A DNA stretch of 64,000 nt, from assembly GCF_032854445.1 (NCBI RefSeq), contig NC_088295.1, forward strand, positions 45,557,385 to 45,621,384, written 5' to 3'. The notes under the pieces were generated by a model that was given only the letters and a program-made list of their open reading frames with translations, was not told the origin of the DNA and made no database searches. The position numbers were made by a program, and so were the translations under genes. Positions within the stretch are counted from its first letter, which is position 1; every line of letters starts with the position of its first letter. Of this stretch, positions 2,520-47,000 are shown piece after piece. The stretch is from Liolophura sinensis (lineage: Eukaryota; Mollusca; Polyplacophora; Chitonida; Chitonidae).

Positions 2520-5452
<2,933 letters not shown>

Positions 5453-10844: not shown

Positions 10845-11745
10845 TACTATCAATGGTCTGTGGTACCGTTCCTCGCCTCTCACTCTCCCTCACTCCAACT
10901 GTCCTGTATGCATACCATGGATGGTCCGTGGTACCGTCTCTCGCCCTCTCACCCTCTCACCCTCCCTCACACCTGCAGTGCTGCATGCGTACCACCGCTG
11001 GTTCCGTGGTACCGTCTCTCGCCTTATCACCCCCCAGCCCCTCACACCTAGTCCTGCATGCGTACCATTACTGGTTCGTGGTACCGATTCTCGCCATCAC
11101 CCTCCCTCACCCCTGCTGTCCTGTATGCATACCATGGATAGACTGTAGTACCGTCTCCCGTCTCTCACTCTCCCTAAGACCTGCTGTCCTGCATGCGTAC
11201 CATCGCTTGTCCTTGGTACCGTCTCTCGCTCTCTCAACCTCCCTCACACCTACAGTCCTGCATGCGTACCGTGGATGGTCCGTGGTACCGTCTCTCGCCC
11301 TCACCCTCCCTCACTCCTGCTGTCACCGTCTGTGGTACCGTGGTATCGTCTCTCGCCTCTGCTGTCCTGTATGCGTACCATGGATGGTCCGTGGTACCGT
11401 CTCTCGCCCTCTGACCCTCCCTCACTTCTGCTATCCTGTATGCGTACCATGGATGGTCCGTGGTACCGTCTCCCGCCTCTCACTCTCCCTCACACCTGCT
11501 GTCCTGTATGCGTACCATGGATAGACCGTAGTACCGTCTCTCGCCTCTCTCCCTCACATCTGCTTTCCTGCATGCGTACCATCACTTGTCCGTGGTACCG
11601 CCTCTCGCCCCCTCACTCTCCTTCACATCTACAGTCCTGCACGTGCACCACCGCTGGTCCGCGGTACCGTCTCTCACCCTCTCACCCTGCTGTCCTGCAT
11701 GCCTACCATGGATGGTCTGTGGTACCATTTCTCGCTCTCATCCCC
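10845..11745. repeat. Minisatellite, ~66-70-bp unit, about 13-14 copies
   Basis: Tandem array in which each unit carries GGTACC(G) or a one-base variant, then TCTCTCGCC, a CCCTCAC-rich pyrimidine tract, CTGTCCTGCATGCGTACCA and TGGATGGTCC. Unit spacing is about 66-70 bp with some shorter units. The plus strand is strongly pyrimidine-rich and open in several frames, so long spurious reading frames arise here. The right end lies just beyond the likely splice donor of the minus-strand exon 11789-12338, so the array is probably intronic. Confidence 0.9.
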
Positions 11746-11788
11746 TCTCTCCCTCCCTTCTCTCCCACTATTTCTCCAACACACCTAC

Positions 11789-12338
11789 CGTCCACCACCC
11801 GCCAGCCTAGACCGACGGTTTCTGGAGGCTCGCTCCATCTTTCCTCGAGTCGCTCCTTGTGGACCCTTCGGTGTTCCTCGTCGGCTTTTTCTTTCTTCGC
11901 CACGGCCTGGCGTTGTTTTACCGAAACAATGCGAGCTTTCCTCCTCACCCTAGACAACTTCTGTCTTCTGAGCACTCCCGCCTTGGTCATCCTGTTGTTA
12001 AGGTTTTCTCTGATCTTCTCTCGCTCTTGTTTCAGCTCAATCGGCTCCAAAAGCCGAGGTTTTCCCGATGGATAGGGATTGCCATCTAAAGACACGTAGA
12101 AAGCAACACTGCCATTGTCTTTTTCTAGGAGAGTCTCACATTTCAAGAGGCCTTCTTCCTTCAGCTCTTTCAGAACCTCCTCTTCAGTTTTCCTCCTGCG
12201 GGGCTCCTCTAGAGCTGGCTGCATGGACAGGGGTAGATAAATGGTCTGGACCATGGTGACTTCCCTCTTAGGTGGCTCTTTTCCGGCTGGAAGAGGAGCT
12301 ACTCTTCTGTTTGCTCTTTTGGACTGGATACAGCCCAT
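11789..12338 (-). CDS. First coding exon of a stathmin-domain-containing-1-like, probably myristoylated protein
   Basis: The frame starts MGCIQSK, a good N-myristoylation signal (Gly2) followed by Cys3, which suggests dual acylation and membrane anchoring. The middle part (VLKELKEEGLL, about 30 residues of beta-like sequence with NGSVAFYVSLDG, then PRLLEPIELKQEREKI) resembles the region before and at the start of the stathmin-like helix of STMND1. A long basic Arg/Lys/Glu helix follows (to about residue 170). Stathmin-type helices bind tubulin; here that is an inference from weak similarity. The exon probably ends at a GTAGGT donor at 11789/11788. Past that point the frame enters the minisatellite and reads low-complexity sequence to a stop at 11703, so the true C-terminus probably lies on another exon farther left that I could not find. 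Upstream (12440-12500) are a TGACGT CRE-like word and TATA-like words, but the promoter is not certain. Confidence 0.55.
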
Positions 12339-12831
12339 GTTATGACATCAGTGACGGTTAAAATGATTCTGCAACAGTAGATTTCACCGCACAATTCTTC
12401 GCTTCCACAGCTGTATTATCAGTGTAAACATATATCTGCTCGCGCTTTGCTTGTCTACGTCACTATACAAGAGCTGACCAATCAACGGGCTGTATAAAGA
12501 CCGCGTGACCTGAAAGCGTCGTCTGACGTTATCATATGAAGGTGGAACGTAACAATAAACGAGGTGTGCTCTAGTAAGGGAAGCTGTAATAAGTGATTGT
12601 TGTGTCCATGTATAGGCCTACTTGTCGTTTGACATGCATGCTAGAATGATGAGTTCACGAATTCTTTATTGTCGGCATTTCCTCATTTTGCAGTTTCGAC
12701 AAACGATAAACGCAACAACAGAAGCCTAGACGGAATATATGCCTTTCCTAAAATGTCATGAATAAACGTCAAAAATACACGAGATTAGCTGTTCGAGATA
12801 TATTTATTGTATTAATGTTATTCGAGTCTAA

Positions 12832-15369: not shown

Positions 15370-15375
15370 TTTATT
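15370..15375 (-). terminator. Candidate polyadenylation signal for receptor gene
   Basis: AATAAA on the minus strand about 230 bp downstream of the receptor stop codon. It is the nearest canonical signal I saw. Confidence 0.4.
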
Positions 15376-15601: not shown

Positions 15602-16073
15602 TCAAGTTGTTGCGTTACCAACAGTTAATTTCTCGTAATCTGTAGTTTTTGTCCCTTGTTCACCTTCCGGCGGTAAATGGCAGTATTCGGCGCTCTTTTG
15701 CTCAAGACCAAGTCGGGTATTTTCGTAGTCGAAAAATTCTCCGACCGAGTCGTACTCTCCAGAGACCACAGAAATTTCTTTCGTCAATTTCCGTTTGTTT
15801 TCGTACGGCGACTCCGTGACGGGACCCGAAGGGTTGAGATAGTCGTGCCCTGGATTTGCAACCCCATCCAGAACGGCGTACTTGGCTGCCTCGTTTTGGA
15901 CGTCTTCTGGTACACAGTATATCCCCTCATCTATGGGTTCGAAATATTCCGGACATGACGAAGTTCGGGAACCAAGGGATACTTTATGTGGAGAATTTCT
16001 GACCGGTAGAGCGGGAACAGCTGGTGGGAGTCTGGCTAACTTGCTTTCAGTATCTTTGCGCTCACCAGCACTC
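15602..16073 (-). CDS. Receptor exon 6: cytoplasmic tail
   Basis: The acceptor TTTATAG|GAG completes the split Arg codon of the preceding exon. It encodes about 156 residues with the nine tyrosine motifs and SH3 motifs, ending VGNATT and TGA. The first tract is Pro-rich; the rest is acidic and likely disordered. Confidence 0.8.
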
Positions 16074-19000
16074 CTATAAAAAGAAGAAAAACAACAATAG
16101 AATACGGGCATGTATATATACGTACGCACTTGTAGTTTCGAAGAAATGAGACTGACGATAGGCTATGAATCCCGGTAAAATACCGTTACATATATGTGCT
16201 GCCACGGAAAGTTGCCTGGAAATTTCCAGATTAATCCATTTTTATTAAATGTTTCCGCTTTATTTATTTTATATATATATATATTCCTCTCGTGGCGTCC
16301 ACATATTCCAGCGTAAACCTCTACAGGGCAAAGTTGGCACAGACATACCATGTTGCAGTGTCGTAGCTTCAGAATGTAGTTTTGTAGAAACAGTCTGCAA
16401 ATAATATACACAATGGCGCCACCATCAAAAATTTCATTTCATGTTCTGCCATCTTCCAGAATATTTAACAAAGGTAGTGTTATTGGGTGGTGGATTCGAA
16501 CAGGTGACCTCAATGATGAAGGGGTATGATGTTACTCAACAAGAACGCTTAATACAACTCAGCCGAAGACAACAATAGATGAATGTTATATGCCGATGAT
16601 ATAGATTCCCAACAAACCATGCAGGTAGCAAGAAATTTCGAGTGCGCATGACACATCCTGGCCTGAGATGGAAATTTCATGCTCTTCATTTGAATCTGTG
16701 TGACGCCTGCATGAAACTTTATTTGGACTCGAGCGTAGTTTCAAGTTAAAACCTTAGCTGTCGCCAATGTCTACAGTGTTGTAGAGTAGGCTTATGACAT
16801 GACAAATCGCCACACATGCGCATTTGTTTTTGTACCATTTGATCAATTATCATACAGCATAGATGCCCTTACCTTCTTCGTAAACAGATGAAGACAACGA
16901 CAGCAAAAACCACCAATACAAGAAAACCCCCCACTGCAACTCCGGCGATCAAACCTGGTAACGTACAATCAAGAAAAACTTGATTAAAAGCAATATATTC
17001 AGTTATTTATTTCAAATTCTCAAATTTTACACTTAGAGGGTTATATGGGTGGAGGGAACGGGAGTGCCTGGCGTAAACCATCGACTCTAGGGCTAGGTTC
17101 ACTATCTGCTTTTATCACGCGAGATTTGTAATATTGGAACATTGCTGTAAACAGCTATTTGCGAGTAACATGGTCTTCCTGGCCGAGAAAAGCCAATAGT
17201 GCACTTTAATGGGGCTCTAATCACTTGACCACGACCCGGTCATACTGACGCCATACATGTAACATAAAGAACCATGTAAAATCTTATTCAAAAACATATG
17301 TGCTCACTCTTAAAGATTTTATTCCTCTGGAAAAGAGTAGTTAAATGTTGGAATAGTAAATTGGGCTTTGTGGTCCATATTTAGGTATGTATTCATGTGA
17401 AGGCATTTTTCACTCCTAAATGTATTTTTGTGGAATCTGATCATATGTCAGTAATAAGTATATATAACAAAGTCTATAAAAACAGGTAATCTAATTTTAT
17501 ACACAATTTACGATAATAAAATAAACATTATACCAACACATTGCCCATAAATCTCTGACGACCAGTTGATATTACATGTATGTTTTTTTGAATGAGGTTT
17601 TTCTTTCAACGACGGTGATTAAAAATTGGCTTACCTATATAGCTCCTAGGCCCTGCACCTGCTGGATTGGAACTCGACTCAGTCGTGGAGGGGAAAAAGT
17701 CAGTCGAATGGGACACACTGTAGGAGGGTGTTGTGTCAGCCTGTGTGGATATGTGTCCCGAGCCGTCATAAGGAGGCTCTGTTACTTCCGGTAAAACTGC
17801 ACACTTCATCTCCACGTCAACTGGTTTGTTGTTAGAAGAAACTCCTGTGAATAGAAATTGTTAACAGTTTTAAGGAACCAGAAACACGACTTTAAATTGG
17901 AATAGCAGATGTGTACAGAATTCCAAGCAGGTACGTCGGAACAAGGAAAAGGAGCTGACGGCCACATAACCTTATTTGAAACATTATTCACCATCCAAAG
18001 AAAATACGCCCAAAGTTTTTGGATAGCCTACAGTATTCACATTACCACGGACACTTTCCTTCACTTCACGCGATTGCAGTAGAAAGAACACATGTAAACA
18101 TTTAAATTTAAATGTGAGTTTTCAAAACAATGATATGTAAACACATATTCCGAAACCTTCGCAAAAGATACAGAGTAGACTAAATTAGGCTGACATATTG
18201 TTAAAGAAATTGGTCATGTAATTTCATGTATTGGGCGCTCTTGGTGAAGACTTACCTCTGAGTGTAATCCATGCTCCTCTCCTAGGGCGTGTCACGTAAT
18301 AGTCCTGTCTTGAGTATATAAACGTCCATGTCGATTTCGGCAAAGTTATGTTTTTGGGCAAGTCTGTTGAGGTACATGCACCATTGGTATAATGAAGTAT
18401 TTCCCAGATGTCCTGATGGTCTTCAAGACTTCCGTTAAGGATCTCTTCTGCGCAAGTCCCCATTGTTCCCCAGATGAGGTCAAGGTCGACAACATTGGCT
18501 TGGATCTTCGCGTTATCGCGAACGGTGACGTTGCAGGCACATGTCATTGCCGACAAAAAACCATAATCTGGCTGAGGATAGGGGTAACCCGGACTCACCA
18601 GGTCTACTGCACCACGCGTGCGTAGCTCAAAATGATTGCAAATGTCTTTAGGTTCTGTAAGACAAAAAATGACCATGGCATTACATGTTGCTGATCCCAC
18701 ATATAGAATGTCAGTCTCAACACAACAGCATGTCAATCTCACTACCACAGAATGTTGACCTCACAATTGCGGCAAGCCATTATCACTACAACAGCATGTC
18801 GACCTCCCAATTACGGCATGTCATTATCACCACTCTACCATGTCCACCTCACAATTAAAGCATATGGAGCTCACTATCGTAACGTGTCAACCTCACCTTA
18901 TGTCACCTCGCTATTACGGCATATCTACCTCAGCATTACAGAATGTCAACCTCAGCATTGCAGAATGTTAACCTCACCTTTACAGCACGTTGGCATTATC

Positions 19001-21254
19001 AATATATCATGTCAACCTCATCATCAAAGCATGCCCACCTCGCATGTCTACCTCATAATTACGGCATGTCAATTTCGATATCAGAGCACGTCCCCCTCAC
19101 CATTACAGCGTGTTTCGCAATTACGGCGTGTCAACCATAACAGCACAGTACGTAAACCTCACCATAACAGCCTGTCAACGTCACCATTACAATACGTGAA
19201 CCTTACCATAACAGCCTGCCAACCTCAATAATACAGTACATGAACCTTCTCATAGCAACCCCTCCACCTCAACATTCTTTCAGTATATGAACTTTACCAT
19301 CATGACACGTGTACCGTACGAAGACATGACTGCTCCGTTCCGGGCACCATCCAAACCGCTTCGGGCTGACTAAAGTCACGAAAAATCCTTTCCCGTTCGC
19401 TTCCAAAATGTCCAGAGAGGTATCAGTCGTGTCTCCGACGCAGGTCCATTTCCTCACATCCTCTTCACAGCTGGAAGCTTGCCCGTGGAACACCTGGCGA
19501 ATGGCAATTACTCCTCTTCCACTAAAGGTGTCCTCGCACATTAACTTCAGATTGGAGCGGGTGGTCACTGATGAGGTCATGTCAAAAGACTGCAGGGAGA
19601 CGCATGCCTCTCTGGTTAATGCCTGCTTCACTGAAAAGTTAAGTCGTCCTAATATTAAACAGATAATTGAAAGGTTCATTAATATCTGTAATTATCCATT
19701 TGTTTATTTGGTTTTCTATAATTTTATTTTTCTTTACTGCTTTATTTATGTAAACACAGTACTGAAAAATGTTTCACTATAAATATGACCGTTATAAGGT
19801 TTGCGAGAAGAGGAAACCAGAGTAAACCACTGCCCTTGACCTTGACCAACTACCTATATATAATAATAATATAAAAAAAACCTTCACTTAAAACCCGTAG
19901 TCAATAAGGCGAGATCTGGATTAGAACCAGTGACATCATCGGTCGAACAATTGCAGCGAACAAGCGCTTTTAGTAACCGCCGCCTGAGCAAGCGCTGCTT
20001 TGCAATACTATTTTCATATTCTTGAATTATTTCATCCCTCCACTCAATGAAGTGATCATTTTGACTGATCGGGGACTTTGGTGTCTTACACAAACACATT
20101 CAGCCGTCTCCTTGAGGGCTCAAGGATATAATCATACGAGTCGAAACTGAAGTATTACACAGAGCAGAAAGGCGTGGGAGAAACGGGCGGCTGAGTGGGG
20201 TTTCAAGGCGGAGGGAGGGGATGAGTACAGGTTAGAATTCTGGACTTGTTTGTCCATATTTTCGGTTGAATGAAAAAGATACCCCTCGGGGATAACCATG
20301 AGAGTGAGGGTCACACTGACCTGAGAAAAAAAAAAACCCACAACAATCGTAGTAGCTCAAAAAACAACAGGAGAAAGATTGTGTGCCTAGATTTATGTTG
20401 CAAGACTAATGAGTGCTTTGTATGAGTGAAGTTTTGGGTTGGAAGTGAAAATAAATGGGAATAACGTAAACAAAAAAGAATCCATAATAGCAAATTAATA
20501 AGCAAATGTTTTTTTCTTGTCAATACCTTTTATAAAAACGACCCTTACACGTAAACGCAAATACAATTATTCAGTATATTACGCGGCTAGTAAATGTGAT
20601 ATTAAACATGTTTTATGGTGAATATGGTGAAAAAGAAAATACTCTAAAGCAAAACACCACCACTATGATGCTCAACTGTCAGTATGGCAGTATGGTTATA
20701 TGAGTTAACTGCTTGAGGTCAGTGTACAGAAACTGTGTTTAAAATATCGAAATACACGAAGAGAAGTCGTACATCTAAAACTCCACATCGATGGAGAACC
20801 TTTCATTTACTCTTTGGGATTATGCTGAATGGGTGTTACAGGTGTTTTCAACTGACAGCTAACTTTAACGTAAATGTCAAACATTAATGGTTTGAACGGG
20901 CACTTGGATGGTGTTTTCACCTACTCAGAAATTTGATACAACAGTAAGGCAGAATATATCTCGCACAATGGATGTTAATATGACAGGATCGAAATGGTTT
21001 GTCTTCAACTTTCTGGCCAATATTTGAGGGCATGAAGAAACAGTAATCAGTTTACGGGTTAATTTCACTCACTACTATCCGATGCAATTATTATTAGTTT
21101 CAACAAAGAAATCACAACAAGGAAAAACATTTTTTGCTACTTTCTCTAATTTTTGACATCCACTTTATTTTGAAAGTCAAAGCAGGCGAAACCACTTACC
21201 CGTACTGCAAACAGCTACGCAAACCAATAGCAAGAAAGTAGCAACCGCTTTCAT
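15602..21254 (-). CDS. Type I membrane receptor: SUEL-like lectin, CUB-like domain, phosphotyrosine-rich tail (six exons)
   Basis: Reconstructed as complement of 15602-16073, 16873-16954, 17635-17844, 18256-18654, 19298-19630 and 21200-21254. Every junction has GT-AG sites. The four extracellular introns are all phase 1, and the total is 1551 bp (516 aa plus stop). Order: signal peptide 1-17; degenerate SUEL/galactose-binding-lectin-like domain about 45-127; CUB-like domain about 135-262 with the SPGYP signature; Ser/Thr/Pro stalk 263-332; one membrane span 333-357; cytoplasmic tail 358-516. The tail has SH3-type motifs (RLPPAVP, PALPVR) and nine tyrosine motifs (YFEP, YCVP, YAVL, YLNP, YENK, YDSV, YENT, YCHL, YEKL), three of them YxN as favoured by the Grb2 SH2 domain. 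The likely role is a surface receptor or adhesion molecule that recruits adaptors once tyrosine-phosphorylated. The ligand is unknown, and I do not recognise a named orthologue. Confidence 0.75.
16873..16954 (-). CDS. Receptor exon 5: membrane span
   Basis: An 82-bp exon (2+78+2) encoding GLIAGVAVGGFLVLVVFAVV and a further VFICL, then the basic LRR stop-transfer. It is flanked by CCAG|GT and AAG|GTAAGG and is too short to appear as a long open frame. Confidence 0.8.
17635..17844 (-). CDS. Receptor exon 4: Ser/Thr/Pro stalk
   Basis: A 210-bp exon between TTCACAG|GA and TATAG|GTAAG. It encodes a juxtamembrane stalk rich in Ser, Thr, Pro and Gly (for example HISTQADTTPSYSVSHSTDF), a likely O-glycosylated spacer. 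Confidence 0.75.
18256..18654 (-). CDS. Receptor exon 3: CUB-like domain
   Basis: A 399-bp phase 1-1 exon, as expected for a shuffled extracellular module. It begins with a Cys, has VDLVSPGYPYPQPDY (a CUB-type strand and turn), and several Cys and N-glycosylation sites (NVT, NGS, NIT). The CUB assignment is moderate because spacing of later Cys residues is unusual. Confidence 0.75.
18725..19262. repeat. Degenerate ~22-26-bp minisatellite in receptor intron
   Basis: About twenty loosely related units built on CATGTCAACCTCACCATTACAG-like words (units such as GCATGTCGACCTCCCAATTA and GTCAACCTCACC). The array fills nearly the whole intron between the lectin-like and CUB-like exons. Confidence 0.85.
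19298..19630 (-). CDS. Receptor exon 2: SUEL lectin-like domain
   Basis: A 333-bp phase 1-1 exon. Features of the SUEL/rhamnose-binding lectin fold: an early Cys, hydrophobic strand GVIAIRQVFHGQ, TSLDIL, NGKGFF, and the closing pattern RFGWCP...VFVRYTC. The usual YGR and one CxGKxxC cysteine pair are replaced (FHGQ, NGKGFFV), so sugar binding is doubtful. Confidence 0.7.
19815..20110 (-). repeat. Probable SINE family C remnant in receptor intron 1
   Basis: The AGTAAACCACTGCCCTT word and an inverted B-box-like segment (GGATTAGAACCAGTGAC) at about 19918-19935 recall the reverse copies at 25050 and 31790. The rest is diverged. Confidence 0.35.
21200..21254 (-). CDS. Receptor exon 1: signal peptide
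   Basis: Begins at ATG and encodes MKAVATFLLLVCVAVCST, a classic short signal peptide with a basic start and hydrophobic core. It ends one base into the next codon at a GTAAGT donor. The open frame extends upstream, but this Met gives a clean secretory signal, so I chose it. Intron 1 is about 1.57 kb. Confidence 0.75.
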
Positions 21255-21459
21255 AGTCGTCGAAACTGCAAGTAATCCTTTGTCTAGGGGTCCGAATCTC
21301 GGAAGGTAATGTATAAACGCTGTGGAGAGAAGACTGTCTCTTCGGATATAGTTCACCAGGTATTTTGGAATCACGATCGGTCGGTGTGGGCGAGTAAGTG
21401 TAACTGTCCGAAAACAGTAACGTGCCCTCAAAACGTGCACTCTGAGGCACGATTTCACA

Positions 21460-22641
21460 ATAAAACTGTGTACCTGTGTGTTAACTCACAATAATTTTGG
21501 AACGTGCGCGTGCGGATTTCCTATGTCTCGGTAACCCTATACACTTCGACTTAGTCACCGCCGGTCGCTGTCTAAAACTGAGTTGCGCACAATGTACAAT
21601 GCATATACAGAATAGCATGCAGCAAAGTATTATACTGAGCGAGTCACGAGTTCCGAAACAATCTGAGCACTTGTCCACGGAAATGCCTTTTCCAGCTTAA
21701 CTTTCTTAAACGGATGAATCGAGTGGACAGATTAGTTTATCTGGTGTTTGCCGTTATTTCATTGGTCAGAAAACCGACACCTCACCCCAGTCCCCCTCTA
21801 AAACCCGACCCCTGTTTATCTTCTCATTAAGTCCCCACCCATGTACCCACGACCTTGACATCCGTCACCGTCGGGCTGTCTAACTGGATCCTAGCTTGTC
21901 AGGTGGCGCTGTTTTGTTTTCTAAAACACAATACACCAACTGGTGCATGGCACAAAGCCTCTTTTCAGTGGAATTGCAGTTGCATACACCGTTAATGCAT
22001 TCCACGGTTGACTAACTGCGCTACGACTATCTTATACACGTCATGGCCCTGTGGGTGGCTGGGGCAAGGGCGATGAGTAAGGGGTGGGGGGTGGGGGAGT
22101 GGGGGCGAGAGTTACGTTTCTTACTCACAGGTTAATGTAGGTTGGACGCCCGACATGTGTCTGAACATTTAGTACTTATATGAAAGCTTCATTATATTAA
22201 GGTGGCCATGTGCCTTTATAATTGACATTTAGAACTTCACAGTAGGATAACGTTGGCTGTATCGATGACAACTTCTAGTAATTACGTGACTGCCCTATTG
22301 CTGTGGCTGCTTTCGCCCTGACCAAGCTCACTAAAATCTATGATATCCAGATTCCCACTTGACTAATATTTTACAGGTATTCAAGAATTCAATAACTATT
22401 AAGCCCTTAACCCTAAACACACATGGTCATTTACATATCATATGGATGGCTTGGCGAAAGTGCACAGTATTTCCTTGCTAGATGAACATGAACATACAGG
22501 GCACTTAGTACAGAGACTAAACCTTTACATACATTAAGCATTCACAGAAATTCCTACTGTTACTCATAGATATAGTATTTTCTGGTATGATAGCATATTA
22601 CTGACTTAAAGTATAACCCCTCGAAAAACCGAAGTAAGCTC
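21460..22641. other. Upstream region of receptor gene
   Basis: Presumed promoter side of the minus-strand receptor gene. I found no convincing TATA box. It holds one strong G-quadruplex motif at 22081-22105. Confidence 0.35.
22081..22105 (+). promoter_or_regulatory. G-quadruplex motif
   Basis: Four G runs of 4, 6, 5 and 5 separated by T, T and AGT: a canonical short-loop G-quadruplex. It lies about 830 bp upstream of the receptor start codon. Function is unknown. Confidence 0.5.
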
Positions 22642-27853: not shown

Positions 27854-28180
27854 TTAGTACATACACATAATTACTTTACAAAAAGTAGATCCAGGGTAGA
27901 TTGTTGCTTCTTCATGCCCTGGCGGACTATCATCTCTTCCGTGATCAAATTTACAAGCATTCTTAAATCGCCTTTTCTCGCCACTGGAATTCCTCTCGTA
28001 TTCGTCCAAATAAAACTGCTTTCTTTTTAGGATGTCAATCATAGTTGAACGGCCAACTGAAAACTTGTGAGCCAATTCAGTTTGTGTGGGCGTAGGGAAT
28101 GTTTCGTAAGCTTGGATAAGTTGAACTTGATCACTTAAGTTCATTTCCACACGGCGACGCTTCGCTGGTCTACTGGCCAT
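27854..28180 (-). pseudogene. CENP-B/pogo-type helix-turn-helix transposase fragment
   Basis: From an ATG the frame reads MASRPAKRRRVEMNLSDQ and continues with VQLIQAYETFPTPTQTELAH, FSVGRSTMIDILKRKQFY: a psq-type helix-turn-helix like the N-terminus of pogo/Tigger transposases and CENP-B. After about residue 75 similarity ends, and the frame closes without a second HTH or DDE domain. A basic RPAKRRR nuclear-localisation-like patch precedes the HTH. It is a truncated transposase or a small DNA-binding remnant. Confidence 0.7.
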
Positions 28181-28916
28181 TGTCAAATTACATGTACGCC
28201 AGGGTAAAAGCAGGGGAAATTGTGACGGCAACTTTTTTTTTTTAATTACTGGTTTTAGGGCCACTTTCCTGGCGGATATCGTGGCCCATCAGTGTTTTAT
28301 TTTTTTTTTAACACATGAATATTTTGGTTACATAATAGCAGTGCGTTGGTATACTATTTACATATGTACATGAGTCAATTAGTGGGATTAAACCTCTTTG
28401 TGGTAGCATGTGTATAGCTTATTGTATAGGTTCAAATGCTGCCATGGTCATTTAACAGAAGGGGGATAAATAGTAAGCTATTTACAGAGATTAACGTTAT
28501 CTTTACATTAGAAATACATAGATCTACATTAAAGAATTACAATGAGTTGCCTATACAGAAATTTACACAGAGAGAAAACAACAGCAGTGCTTTTATTTAT
28601 TGGTTAACAGTTTTGTTCTCTTGCTTCCTCCTCTGTGACGTGGAGTTAAGGAGCTCCCGCCACTTATACCGGACGCCGTCCAGGAAAAACAGCGTACTGG
28701 AAACCTGTGCCTGTAACAGGTGCGACAAGTATAAATGAGGAGCAAGGATGTCAGGCCTCATCCACTTAGTTGAAGCAAGAGATAGTCCTATTGTCATGAT
28801 GTCTTTCATGTTTCTGGTCTTCGTTTCCTGGGTGTTAATTTTCTTTGGTCCCATGGGTCTTCTTATTGTTTTCCCTGTCTTCTTCTTTAATTGATTTCCT
28901 TCTCTATTTCCAATTT

Positions 28917-39583: not shown

Positions 39584-40817
39584 AAAAGTGTTGGAATCAC
39601 ATTCAAAATTTGAACATTTAACCAACGATTGATTTGTGAAATTCTCGCCCGTAGGTGTGAGCAGGTCGTTTTTTCTGTATAGTATTTAATACTGTCTACA
39701 TTCTTGTCTATCTACTGTAACGTATCAGTTTTATTGTTGATTTGGTGTTAACACAATCAATTAAATCCGTATTGATTTATTTCTCTTATACAATGTGAGT
39801 AAGATTTATCGGTGAAAGAAAGCAGTCAGCGCCTGGAGGCCATGTACCATCGAGTCCCGTTATATTTCTGGACAGGAAAAGCTGAATTCCAATAGGCTAT
39901 ACACACAAGTAAAACCATATCGTGGTTCAGTTCCTCATGTAAAATGTGAAACATATTCAAAAATCTACTATCTCCGAATATTTGACCTACTACTTGTCTT
40001 CAGTTAATTATTTTTTTTTAATACGGAGTGCTATATACAAGTTTATTTGATACTGTTCATGTCAAATGAGAACTACAGTATTTATCATTGGGTAAAATCG
40101 GATTTCCTTATTATGTGATATGGTAAATATAATAGTCCAGTTAATCACCGCAGTATAGAATGACTGTGATGGCTTTTATAGTACCGGTATTGTAAAAGAG
40201 ACTGGAAAACAAAATGGATTGTTAAAAAAAAGATGAACCGTCTTCCTATAGTTCTACACACTAAGGTTAAAAGAATTGAGTACCTGTATGGAAATGTATT
40301 TCGTGAGAGATCATCAGAACTATTTTCAATTTGGCGTCAACGTTATAGGCTTACGGTAAAACGGGTTTGAACCCACTATAAGTGTTTATACTCTGTCATG
40401 ATTTATCACTGAGTGTACTGACATTACACACCTGCTAATCTATATGCTTTACTCTGACCTCAACACGTTTGCGCCTCTTTCTCGGCCAAACGTATTTGCA
40501 TACCGTGCTGAGATCACGGACCAACAGTGGAGAGTTATATGTCATGTGAAGTACCGGCGATACACATGTTCAAGGTGCAGTGGTCGCTGAAAGATCTGGT
40601 GTCTTTCAGACGACGAATTATGAAATAGCTAGAGCCCTGGGCTTAAAGATTCAAAGGTAGGATACTTTAATCATACGTATACAAGCTCATAGTTACTGAA
40701 TCGGCGTCAGCCCTCTAATTAGCTACATCACATCCAGCTCTAGCCGTCAGTTGGTCATCTGTCGACTACTGGAATCGGGTTGATTTTCACAGGTGCTCGC
40801 TGCCCTGAGATACCAAC

Positions 40818-41060
40818 ATGAAGACGTCAACCGGGATGGAGTCTTGTTCTTCCCCCAGGGTAGTCGCCAAGGGAAATAACGACACCAAAATTCCGTCGAT
40901 CATGCAGCATCTTCCACTTAAAGTGACCGAGGTGTCCAAAGAAACCATCAAGAACTTTGCCCACACCAAGAGAGTGGGGAATTATTTGCTGGGTCGAACT
41001 CTGGGAGAAGGGTCGTTCGCCAAAGTCAAGGAAGGACTTCACGTTCTTACTGGAGAAAAG
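40818..41060 (+). CDS. HUNK: HUNK exon 1
   Basis: Encodes residues 1-81, ending EGLHVLTGEK with donor AAG|GTATGC, phase 0. It contains the glycine-rich nucleotide loop. Confidence 0.85.
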
Positions 41061-44000
41061 GTATGCATACAGTTAGATCAAAGTACTCCCCGAACTAATA
41101 ATCTTTTAAATAATTCTGTTATTGCAGCAGAGTATTCTGTTATTGCAGAAGATTATTCTGTTATTGCAGAAGAGTATTCCGCCTGTGCAGCATAGTATTC
41201 TGGTGCTGCAGTAGAATATTCTGTTAAATGTGGAACACGTATTATATTAATTCAGCATAAAGGAAATGACAGACCAACAGGATATTATGTTAAATATGAT
41301 TTATGTTCAAATAAGAGAATAGATTCTAGCATCACTTAGACAGTAGACTTTGTTTAAAATAGCAGAGTATTCTTTTTACTGTATTGTGGCTTTTCTTATT
41401 AATGCTTTCACTTCGGTACATACAAAAGTGTTTGCCATGTGTAGCTCTGTACTACAAAAGTTTTCAGCGTGTGAAAATATGTGTGAACAAAACCCTCATG
41501 TTTAAGTACCGTGTTTTGCGCGATGTCTATATGTGTACGAAAATACTCAAATTATAATTTAAGCCGCTTAATAAGAATATAGTCTAGAGTATAACTTGAG
41601 AGACAAATAGTCAAAGGATCTGTTATGTATCAAACCGTCTGATAATCTCCGACAGGCTTTAACCACCTTACAAACACTCCTGTTTACGTCGCCATATTTG
41701 TTCTAAAGATTTGCCGCTTTGCTTCGGACAAAAGTTCGCACGAGCTTTCGCTATATCGCGCTGTTCTTTGTTAGACAATGTTTCAATGAGTTTTGTATAT
41801 AAACTGTCAATTCCCGTTAAACCTATCCCAGTATTCTGTCATTGACAATTTGATATGATCGGCAGTGCGGAATAATATCTGTGTGGGATTTATCGAGTTA
41901 ATGCTTGTGCTATTTGGCTTTGTTTGTGTTTGCGCATACATGTTATACAGTCTAAACTTGTTTGTAATTGTATTTAAATCGTGTTCCATATTTAGACGCC
42001 CAGAAATACGATACTGTGTAAAGTTCTAAGGCCGTTTTATACACACCCATGCCTTCGGCCAGCAGTTCGGTGATTTGACCTTCATTTTGGGATTCTAATA
42101 CCTTATGAGAACTAGAGGACCAAGGGCAAACAAGGGCCCACTGACCGAGATTGCATTGTGTCCTTTTATTACCTTATGTATGGAGTATTACCGAGTGTAT
42201 CAACTAAATGCTCAGGAATCTTTCAAGAAAACCATATATAACGAAGCACGTCGCCCTGACATAGCGCTCCAATAAATGAGCTTTTAATATGTGTGTCAGA
42301 GAACAATTTGTTGTGTTTATGGCCTGTTGTGGATAACAACGGAACTAGCCGCTGTAAATCTGCCTCCTTTGTCCCAGTTTTAATTTGAAATATTATATCG
42401 CCAGAAGAAAGTCCATTGTCCAGAGTATATAGTGTATGCACAGCGCGTGATGCTGGCATAGTGTACAGACTGGGCCTTCTGTGCTATTTTGTGAACGGAT
42501 TTACTATGATAACCCTTCATTAATGTTGCATGACGCTGGCTAATGACGCTGTTATCAGAAAGGCTCGATTGGTATAGGAACCATACCAATGCTAATGTGA
42601 GCTTTAGTCCGCCGACTTGATGTTTAGAAACAACGGCCTTAGTTAGTTATAACGTTTATGGAACTTAAAAATTTTGAGACAATCTTTGTCTTAAGACAAT
42701 TAAAACAAATAATATAACTATAGTTATGTCTGAAGAATGGTAGAATCGGGCCTAAACGCCCACAGTCATGTTTTTTCTGACTATAACAATATAAGGTTGG
42801 TAACTATATAAATCAACGTTGAATCTTGAATTCTGACGAGGTCATGGGATATATACATGCGTGTGTATGGCGAAAAGGCAGAACAGAGTTCAGGTGCCAT
42901 CAACGGAAAACAGCCTAACCACTTATCGTGTTATAGAAAATAAATCATTACTTAAACCTAATAATTAGTGCTTTAAGTGTTCCCCATACCTCAGCGCGTT
43001 TTAGTTTGCCCTGAACGCCGATATCTCTTTTATGCAGCATCACATAAATAGAAAGTTGTGAAATGATGTGAAAATCACTTCAAAACTGGATGTGAAATAC
43101 TAGTACTTCATCCATGAACGTCTAGTGTTTTTTCTTTTAAACCTTCAGCAAGATAAGAATATGCTCAGTTTATATATTATAAATTGTAGATGTGGATACG
43201 AAGAAAGCAGGCAATTTTATAACAATCACACAATCGGTGAATCGGTTGCTCTATCAAGCCGATGTGTGAAAGTTTGTGATCAGTGAAATCTGCTGGAGGG
43301 AAGTTGCAAATAACAAAACATCTGAAAAGACTTGTGTCCACTAATTTGCATACTTGATTATATAGCCAATAAAAAGACGCAATACTGAAAATGATTTTCA
43401 AATTAATTATTCTTAATTTTCGTAGCAAAAGTCTGATATGAGATTAATGACTATATGTTTATTTACCATACTGTTTTCAAGATATTTGCGTATCACTACT
43501 ATCCTCTACTTCAGTCTCTTTAGGCATAACAGCTTTTCGGATTGGCTTGCTGTCCATGTTGGTTGCATTGCGTGAAGCACGTAGGCCTAAATATATCCCC
43601 GAATGTTTTGAATGATTTTGTGAATGTTTTTTGTGAATGTTTGCAAAGCTACGTAATAAATGTTCAATAGCATTACCTATAAAATTCAATAATTATCACA
43701 GAAAACTGTGAAAGTATATTGGCAAATCTTTACCGCCAACAATCCTACAGAATTTACACCCACAATCCCACCTACCCATGTATGACGATCCCCACTGCAC
43801 ATGCAACCAGATAGTCTAAAAATAGTCATTATATACATACAGGCAAATTGCTTGCGGAGAAAGCACATATACATTAGTGTAGATGGTATAAATTTTTGTA
43901 GATCAATGAAAGAATGAAAGATTCATCAAATCTGATCTTATAAATAACTTTGTTAAACAGCAAGGTTGTGTGCAAATTTCGCCCTAGTTCAACCTGTAAC

Positions 44001-47000
44001 TTGTAACTTCAAACTAGAATGGGTAAACTAAGTGTAGTTTGAAGTTAGAAGTTACAAAAGTCATCATTGCTTACGCCTCCACAAACGGAAACTATGCAGT
44101 GTCATACATCCGTGCCGACGCAGATTTTGCCGCTTAAGGAGGTTGCTTGATGATTTAGCCGTCTACTCAACATTTGTCGCGCTAAACACCTCCCACGTTG
44201 TCACTCATGAACGGTTGTTCACAACTAATTCCATGCATTATGAAAGACTTTTGTATTTGTTTTGTCGGCAGTTGACGGCAATATCATCCATCTCATGCCA
44301 ATAGCCAGCGTATAGCTGGTACGGTTTTATGGCCACAAATGTTTGCTCAGATTTCACATTTACGACATAGTTATCAGGGGTTATATAGCTACAGCAAACG
44401 CGGATTGATCTACACTGCCCTTATGATCTGGAAGTCACTGATTTGACAGAAACACCAAGATGTAGTTTGCCCATGATTCCTGCCAGTGTCAGTTTTAGAC
44501 AAAATTTAGGCATATACATGTGCAGGCCTGTACAGAAGAACCTGTAGTCCTGATTTTAACATACAATGGTGTACATATACATGTGGATTTATTTCCGTAT
44601 TTGTTTGACTGGTGTTTTATGCCGCACTTCGGAATAATTTACTTATATATATACGACGGCAGCCAGCGTGGATGGAACCAGCTTCCGGGAGAAACCCACG
44701 ACTATCAATTTTTGTCATAATTCTCAGAAAACGAAATCATAATTGCGACATAGTTCTCACGCAAACATGCCCATAATGTGTACATGTCATCATTGTTACA
44801 CTAGACACTGCCACTTTTTCAGTCTCCAGAGGTTGTTTTAATTTTTAAATATTCAACGACCTGCATGAAGAGCTCAAAAACAACAACACTAAAGTAATCA
44901 AACCAAAATGGTGATCATGCCAGGCAAGACATTTACCAAGTATTATCCGATCTTCGAGAACGTTCTGTAGATTTTGTAACCACTGATTGTTGATCCGGTA
45001 ATCCAGTACGCCACTCTAGGATACAAAGTGATCGGTTCGGCCGTTTTGATTCATGATTTTTAGTGCATTTGTATGATTCTTCTCTGGTACAGGTTGCCAT
45101 TAAGGTTGTGGACAAAAAACGGGCCAAAGAGGACAGCTATGTCCGTAAAAACATGCGACGGGAAGGTAAACTGCTGCAGATGGTGCACCATCCGAACATC
45201 ATCCGTTTGTACGAGATCATGGAGACCGAAAATAGCTACTACCTGGTTACTGAGCTGTGCAGAGGCGGAGACTTCATGGAGTATATTTGTCAAAAGAAAC
45301 GCCTGAACGAGAAAGAGGTGAAGAAATACATCCGCCAGATCATATCCGCTGTGGACTACTTACATCGCTTGGGAATTCTTCATAGGTAACAATCTGGAGA
45401 GAAGCGAAATAGAAGAAAAGTAACTCCGAACATTAAGTCATAGTGGACCTATATTTTGGTTGTGTATAAATGTATATAAGCTTATGTATTCTTTTCTGTA
45501 CATATTTCGGTGATAATGGCACAAACATAGTAGCCGAAATATAGATCAATGTTCGGATTTACTTCCTCTCTATTTTATGCAAAACTGATAGGTGGGTCTT
45601 TTGTCGCACAAGTGACGCAAGACTATTTTTTCATAGCATCTGGAATTTTGCCGTAAATTAGTTATTTTGTAGGTTTCTGAGTGTGTAGATCAGTATAATA
45701 TAGATATACATTTACACACATATGCCAGGTCACAGTCGGTGTTTCGTTGTAAATTTATGCTAGAATTACTCATATTCGAATAATAGACGTATTATAGAAT
45801 GTTGACCCATTTTGATTTGCCTTGGAATTTTGACAAGACAGTTCTTTGTTTTAATGGTTAATTACTAGTTACTAGTTATGTCACTTAATGAATCGATCTA
45901 ACTAAATTTATTCTTTATTTATATAGAGATCTGAAGGTCGAAAACCTGCTTTTGGATGAAAATGGAGACATTAAACTTATTGGTAAGTATAAAATGTTTC
46001 TTTTAATTTAATTTAATCATCAACAACAAAATACGTTGTTGTTTAGGAAGGAATACCATTCATGTGGAAATGAAACCCAGGCCTAAAACAGTTCCCTTTT
46101 CCTTTCAGATTTTGGTCTTAGCAATAGCATACGAGGCTCTACCATGAGAGAGGGACAAAGAATGCAAGAGTTTTGTGTCACCCAGTGTGGAAGCCCAGCG
46201 TACGCTGCGCCAGAATTGCTTGGGCATAAGCACTATGGGACAAAAGTGGATGCATGGAGCATGTAAGGGCCATTTTTTTGTATTATTCATTTTAGCCTAC
46301 AAATAGGTTGTACATTTGATGTCTTTTGCATACGCACTACGCATTCCAATACTCGACCCTGGACTTCCTTTTGTCCTCAGAAACACACCGAACAAGTTTG
46401 AAGTGGGTATGATGAAGAGTAGTGGAGAAATAGAAGGACGGTCATACATACATATATACATATACGTACTTATGTACATATATAAATGCAGAAATTCCCT
46501 ACTGCATAATGATATACGTTATCATATAGGGTCTCCTCCCACGCGGTAGGGGAGTTTCTAGTTCGAACTCTTTAATTGCTAAAATGGGTGAAAAAATTGT
46601 CCTACTGTCCCATGTGACTTATGAGAAATCATAAACAACTATTTTTGATGACGTATACTATAACACAGGGAAAATTCATTCAGTGTAAAGGAAAGGTGGG
46701 AAAAAAATTCAGGTGATGAAAGATTGTGAATATCAAAATAGGGGTCATTTGTGCTTCATTCGTCGTGAGATGTGAGTTGTCCAACAGTTTTTACGAGTCA
46801 CATGATAAAAGTAGGACTCTTTGGTCTTAAAGTGATCATAAAGTCTGCCACTATATATACATAGAATAAATGATACACACGGCACAGTTATCACATAAAA
46901 ATGTGTAAAAAAAATTCTATTAACTTTTGAAAGCCGAGAAGATAAAGTTCAGCATTGGGGATATGGCACTGACGGACAAAAGTCACTTCGAGTCGCTAAC

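Follow-up and report, generated by a model that had tools for sequence, protein, structure and literature searches.

Kinase-less receptors that act as phosphotyrosine scaffolds are known from vertebrates, in the form of CDCP1 and the DCBLD proteins. CDCP1, in the available part of its description, is a CUB receptor; its transmembrane (TM) segment mediates dimerisation, Src docks at a tyrosine of the tail, and phosphorylation is clustered (PMC3534080). DCBLD1 and DCBLD2 are, in the accessible sections of a second report, scaffolding receptors with a CUB domain; once Fyn or Abl has acted, the SH2 domain of CRKL binds to their YxxP sites (PMC6029619). Another extracellular module, the SUEL or RBL domain, forms the ectodomain of EVA-1 (C21orf63), a single-pass membrane protein and Slit coreceptor according to the accessible portion of PMC2430599; the same portion notes that such domains in transmembrane receptors often lack the sugar-binding residues, and argues for non-carbohydrate ligands. 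Here we describe a locus of the chiton Liolophura sinensis that probably encodes a receptor with a SUEL-fold domain, a CUB domain, a stalk, one TM helix and a phosphotyrosine docking tail. It occupies the minus strand between positions 21254 and 15602 of a 64,000-nucleotide stretch of DNA, referred to as the window (NC_088295.1, 45,557,385 to 45,621,384; C1:45557385-45621384 in the scanned genome of 609 Mb and 632 contigs).

Rebuilt from the sequence, the gene has six minus-strand exons with intron phases 1, 1, 1, 1 and 2, and encodes a protein of 516 amino acids (aa); the stop codon has its last base at 15602. Exon 1 (21254-21200) provides the ATG and a signal peptide, MKAVATFLLLVCVAVCST, judged by eye, and ends in phase 1. 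The next three exons are all phase 1-1: exon 2 (19630-19298) encodes the putative degenerate SUEL/RBL-like domain, exon 3 (18654-18256) the divergent CUB-like domain, and exon 4 (17844-17635) a Ser/Thr/Pro-rich stalk with a single cysteine (C277). Exon 5 (16954-16873; phase 1-2) contains the TM helix, a juxtamembrane cysteine (C356) and an RRR stop-transfer signal, and exon 6 (16073-15602) encodes the cytoplasmic tail, with an SH3-type stretch (RLPPAVPALPVR), nine tyrosines and the stop. A candidate polyadenylation signal, AATAAA, is present on the same strand at 15370..15375, 227 nt past the stop codon. An earlier note on this DNA had proposed six exons joined by phase into 516 aa, with the extracellular modules on phase 1-1 exons; coordinates, phases, start and stop all proved exact to the base, and the stalk exon shares the phase of the two modules.

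All five introns are of the GT-AG type, and their donors match the nine-position consensus at 8, 6, 8, 7 and 8 positions (introns 1 to 5); as background, 3.8% of 3928 minus-strand GT sites score 7/9 or better. The open frames around exons 2, 3 and 6 are 140, 178 and 186 aa long; frames as long or longer are expected 1.3, 0.17 and 0.13 times, respectively, in 64 kb, as estimated from 30 simulations of the window with a first-order Markov model. Coding GC is ~0.49 (0.52, 0.47 and 0.49 at the three codon positions) compared with 0.34-0.44 in the introns, and the observed/expected CpG ratio is 1.23-1.37 at ~21200-21600, surrounding the start at the 5' end of the gene. The donor of exon 2, the weakest of the five (6/9), and a GC bias at third codon positions that is not strong are what might be expected of a decayed gene, or of unrelated open frames misassembled by eye. 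We regard this as highly improbable: 1551 nt are read without a frame break and with consistent phases, the open frames are longer than chance, exons and introns contrast in GC, and the signal peptide, TM helix and stop-transfer signal are correctly placed. We regard the locus as a genuine protein-coding gene, its product being a type I receptor that crosses the membrane once and has no kinase domain.

The five introns yielded no further phase 1-1 exon of at least 50 codons, at thresholds that would reject the donor of exon 2 too, and a search for a paralog within the window gave nothing below E 0.5 except the six exons. Degenerate 22/44-bp tandem repeats lie in intron 2 (18705-19248); a plus-strand open frame that crosses them (18707-19231) is probably a by-product.

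The tail is 156 aa long, with its tyrosines at positions 403, 412, 425, 438, 450, 467, 476, 490 and 506. Three of these (Y438, Y450 and Y476) are in YxN motifs, which are of Grb2 type; the mean number in 20,000 shuffles of the tail is 0.40, and 0.37% of the shuffles reach three. Four sites match Yxx[LIV], all of them also Yxx[LV], a number reached by 4.2% of the shuffles, and the SH3-type motifs RxxPxxP and PxxPx[RK] occur once each (4.3% and 11% of shuffles). The recount thus agrees with the earlier note, which had listed nine tyrosines, three YxN, several YxxL/V, RxxPxxP and PxxPxR; it adds three YxxP sites (Y403, Y412 and Y438), read from the sequence without a shuffle comparison. Each of the nine tyrosines has an Asp or Glu at -4 to -1, for which a hand calculation from the D/E content of the tail (0.167) gives a chance of ~0.003. 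The sequence features of a scaffold receptor are present—a single TM segment, no kinase, several SH2-type tyrosine motifs and an SH3 ligand motif—and the sequence gives good support to a receptor that spans the membrane once and has a docking tail of phosphotyrosine type.

The TM exon begins its helix with GxxxGxxxG and ends with CLRRR. Five Pfam families match the 516-aa protein up to E 10, all of them on the TM region, and TM_ErbB1 alone is above its cut-off (30.2 bits, E 3.6e-7). Because this match spans the TM helix and RRR only, membership of the ErbB family was rejected, and the match is probably a matter of convergent composition.

A different reading of the tail makes the protein an immune receptor, activating or inhibitory. 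The immunoreceptor tyrosine-based activation motif (ITAM) is a YxxL/I pair with a spacer of 6-8 residues (up to 12), and its inhibitory counterpart (ITIM) has I, V, L or S at -2. YCHL-x12-YEKL (Y490, Y506) could then be a wide-spaced ITAM, or single Yxx[LV] sites could be ITIM-like, and Syk- or Shp-type proteins would be recruited upon microbial recognition. The four Yxx[LIV] sites, the last two of them 12 residues apart, would fit such a receptor, but their -2 residues are A, G, A and T, unlike those of ITIMs, the x12 spacer exceeds the usual 6-8 of ITAMs, the YxN and YxxP motifs fit adaptors of the growth-factor type, and most SUEL sugar-binding residues are absent (see below). We consider an immune receptor unlikely. 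A role in immunity or cell contact had been proposed in the earlier note solely from the architecture, and the immune role is unsupported.

The case for a CUB-like domain comes from comparison of exon 3, which has five cysteines and three N-glycosylation sequons (N171, N203 and N231), with CUB exons of the same genome. The alignment of exon 3 with a canonical CUB exon (L017) in a tblastn comparison (19 loci) spans 93 columns, 28% of them identical (E 0.051). On a profile of 16 CUB exons, hand-picked from 133 for length and the absence of stops, with other long ones omitted and with the tblastn-matched exon included (as L030), it scores 12.1 bits, which is reached by 0/5000 free shuffles of the exon and by 0/5000 shuffles with the cysteines fixed; exon 2, as a negative control, scores 3.9 bits on that profile. 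With six other CUBs added (22 in all) the score is 10.4 bits, reached by 1/5000 free and 0/5000 cysteine-fixed shuffles, and hhalign gives P 3.7e-4. The best-aligned stretch lies in the early part of the exon (residues 17-77 or 18-91 of its 132). A number of results weigh against a CUB assignment: Pfam found no CUB match in the whole protein or in exon 3, which yields one weak hexapeptide hit (E 0.22); exon 3 is absent from the at least 133 matches of a PF00431 genome scan at E 0.001, in which 150 of 205 candidates were scored; and the hhalign score with a profile of the six CUBs is weak, being reached by 11/300 free and 9/300 cysteine-fixed shuffles. The CUB-like character claimed in the earlier note is thus supported statistically by similarity above shuffles and a lower negative control, and does not extend to the Pfam threshold or to the genome scan. 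Among the matches of that scan is a dense cluster of CUB exons at C1:78164145-78216997, for which a cubilin-like gene would be our guess.

Exon 2 has six cysteines (C28, C50, C73, C82, C114 and C127), compared with the eight of the SUEL framework. If C5 and C6 are taken as the absent ones, a choice that was made post hoc, the gaps C2-C3 (23), C3-C4 (9), C4-C7 (32) and C7-C8 (13) are all within the ranges of 11 SUEL domains (11 of 12 rows, the row with nine cysteines being omitted), and the last three of these are jointly matched by 0.036% of random six-cysteine placements (200,000 trials). C5 and C6 correspond to Cys96 and Cys102 of latrophilin-1, which are disulphide-bonded to each other in the available part of PMC2430599, and exon 2 would therefore lack the two partners of one bridge.

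Support from profile comparisons is weak. On a profile of 12 SUEL domains—ten of known structure, that of L013, a SUEL single-pass gene of the same genome, and one from the loci L010 and L011, which we take to be an EVA-1 gene with split SUEL exons—exon 2 scores 8.0 bits, which is reached by 16/5000 free and 31/5000 cysteine-fixed shuffles. In global pairwise alignments, 127 of 4000 free shuffles reach the score of exon 2 with L013, 69 that with the probable EVA-1, 105 that with latrophilin-1 and 319 that with CSL3. The possibility that exon 2 is a second CUB was rejected, as the shuffles reaching its score on the CUB profile (181/10,000) make that profile a poorer match than SUEL (47/10,000).

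Several findings tell against the SUEL assignment. Pfam, run with the HMMER filters on, gave no PF02140 match up to E 10 in either the whole protein or exon 2, the exon by itself drawing no hit from any family, and the five matches of a PF02140 genome scan at E 0.001 are all at other places. The C1-C2 gap is 22, outside the SUEL range of 9-14. On the ten domains of known structure alone the score is weak, at 4.2 bits (HMMER; 165/5000 free and 249/5000 cysteine-fixed shuffles) and with 6/300 free and 7/300 cysteine-fixed shuffles reaching it in hhalign, which moreover gives a poorer value with the 12-domain profile (P 0.051) than with the ten-domain one (P 0.025). The score on the CUB profile, reached by 80/5000 free and 101/5000 cysteine-fixed shuffles, also counts here: because exon 2 scores mildly on CUB as well, shuffles overstate significance for such domains, and part of the signal is generic.

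These results leave room for exon 2 to encode a different fold, a small beta domain rich in cysteines, with no consequence for how the remainder of the receptor is read. The silence of Pfam, the weak profile support, the overlong C1-C2 loop and the loss of the YGR and DPC hallmarks would all be accounted for in this way; on the other side, four of five cysteine gaps match, the missing pair is one disulphide, and the SUEL profile does better than the CUB profile. We find this alternative doubtful and a degenerate SUEL fold likely. The earlier designation of exon 2 as SUEL-like thereby holds for most of the cysteine gaps and for a weak profile score, and goes unconfirmed by the Pfam threshold and the genome scan.

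Structure prediction was carried out for exons 2 and 3, each alone and from a single sequence. The AlphaFold models have mean pLDDT values of 39.4 and 36.0, too poor to judge the folds, and Foldseek with these low-pLDDT models returned noise, with neither SUEL nor CUB; this speaks neither for nor against the two domain assignments. Nothing relevant came from sequence searches of the PDB, run for the complete protein and exon by exon. In a search of viral contigs two stretches fitted a pattern, and no relative was found.

A SUEL fold need not imply sugar binding. According to the accessible portion of PMC2430599, four residues of mouse Lat-1 hold rhamnose (Glu42, Tyr63, Gly117 and Lys120), and binding is abolished or falls strongly when Glu42 or Lys120 is changed. 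At the corresponding positions of exon 2, in an alignment read by eye, Lys120 is replaced by Ser, Gly117 by Glu and YGR by HGQ, and the column of Glu42 is ambiguous. Because most of the sugar-contact positions are substituted, the term 'lectin-like' of the earlier note cannot be taken to mean sugar binding, and we read exon 2 as a candidate lectin fold that is not a lectin.

The SUEL single-pass gene L013 is 1.84 Mb from the window (C1:47460386-47462211; L013, L014). Its SUEL exon, which is above the Pfam cut-off, is phase 1-1. Next come a stalk-like piece and a TM exon, which like exon 5 closes in phase 2 following RR; the tail exon has 130 aa and one tyrosine. Its splice sites come from reading by eye, and the plan covers the exons after the first. 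No CUB exon was seen between the exons, and the PF00431 scan, with 150 of its 205 candidates scored, lists none there. L013 thus resembles the window gene in the phase 1-1 SUEL exon, the stalk-like piece, the phase-2 TM exon after RR and the tail exon, and differs from it in a SUEL domain over the Pfam cut-off, no CUB seen and one tail tyrosine as opposed to nine. The two genes, few as they are, may point to a group of SUEL single-pass receptors with signalling and tyrosine-poor members. As a tentative possibility, the window gene may represent a new animal receptor family, in which a protein-binding SUEL fold and a CUB domain are combined with a Grb2/Crk-type phosphotyrosine tail, beside tyrosine-poor SUEL relatives such as L013 that share the exon plan; the SUEL fold would then underlie a receptor/decoy or coreceptor set.

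L013 also bears on whether the window protein could act in adhesion or guidance as a coreceptor of the EVA-1 kind, its ectodomain binding a secreted cue or a receptor in cis and its tail being a secondary scaffold. A single-pass SUEL gene with a tyrosine-poor tail in the same genome would suit such a role, as would the frequent loss of sugar residues from transmembrane RBL domains and the Slit coreceptor function of EVA-1, both taken from the accessible portion of PMC2430599. The tyrosine-rich tail of the window protein, however, implies signalling of its own, and EVA-1 carries two SUEL domains. We consider a coreceptor of this kind rather unlikely.

Most likely, by analogy with CDCP1 or DCBLD1/2, the protein is a docking receptor without a kinase. 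In its ectodomain, a SUEL-fold domain that lacks one disulphide and the sugar-binding residues would be followed by a glycosylated, divergent CUB domain and then by a flexible stalk, and its ligand would most likely be a protein or a neighbouring cell-surface protein. With the glycine-zipper TM helix assisting, clustering would let the RxxPxxP/PxxPxR stretch of the tail draw in a Src-family kinase, and this kinase would phosphorylate the tail tyrosines in their acidic context. The phosphotyrosines may then recruit SH2 adaptors, of Grb2 type at the three YxN sites and of Crk type at the three YxxP sites, and the Yxx[LV] sites could recruit Shp/Syk-type proteins. We infer the type of ligand, the kinase, the adaptors, the biological role and the function of the motifs, the last being a point against the docking-receptor reading.

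Other features of the window include a polyubiquitin gene of eight 228-bp units in one frame (2520-4385, minus strand) and an exon of a protein kinase gene (45057-45386, plus strand; Pkinase, E 4e-27). The beginning of the Pkinase domain has a further match, below the cut-off, in a frame at 40809-41192 (E 0.045). A CENP-B_N match slightly under the cut-off (27857-28288, minus strand; E 5e-4) is perhaps a transposase remnant, and a 214-aa open frame with no Pfam match (11703-12347, minus strand) abuts a block of tandem repeats at 10946-11726.

If the docking receptor is confirmed, a SUEL-CUB member would join the kinase-less phosphotyrosine scaffold receptors, a lectin fold would have been reused as a receptor module after the loss of its sugar site, and the tail would offer concrete adaptor sites that can be named. 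Among the open-access papers listed in our literature searches, none described a SUEL-CUB single-pass receptor. All of the parts are known; what would be new is their combination, not the kind of system.

Neither EVA-1 nor the latrophilins can accommodate the gene, membership of both being ruled out by architecture. EVA-1 has two SUEL domains compared with the one SUEL-like exon here, a limited scan of the introns having yielded no second. On the proposed assignment, exon 2 would share the cysteine order and spacing of the latrophilin (ADGRL) RBL domain, minus one disulphide and with a longer C1-C2 loop, whereas latrophilins have seven TM segments and the sugar-contact residues given for mouse Lat-1 in the available part of its description are mostly lost from exon 2.

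To our knowledge, CDCP1 has no SUEL domain. The window protein is otherwise like CDCP1, as described in the accessible sections of PMC3534080, in having a CUB-like ectodomain, a single, putatively dimerising TM segment, cysteines just inside the membrane and a kinase-less tail with a predicted Src-docking function; those sections name five tail tyrosines compared with nine here, and the likeness drawn here is one of architecture. With DCBLD1 and DCBLD2, in the available part of their description, it shares a CUB-containing scaffold with multiple YxxP sites, three in the window gene compared with eight in DCBLD1 and seven in DCBLD2; the DCBLD proteins have LCCL and discoidin domains, whereas the window gene has three YxN motifs and a SUEL-like domain. 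Without claiming membership in either family, we suggest by analogy that the window gene has the parts required for the mode of action of CDCP1 and the DCBLD receptors.

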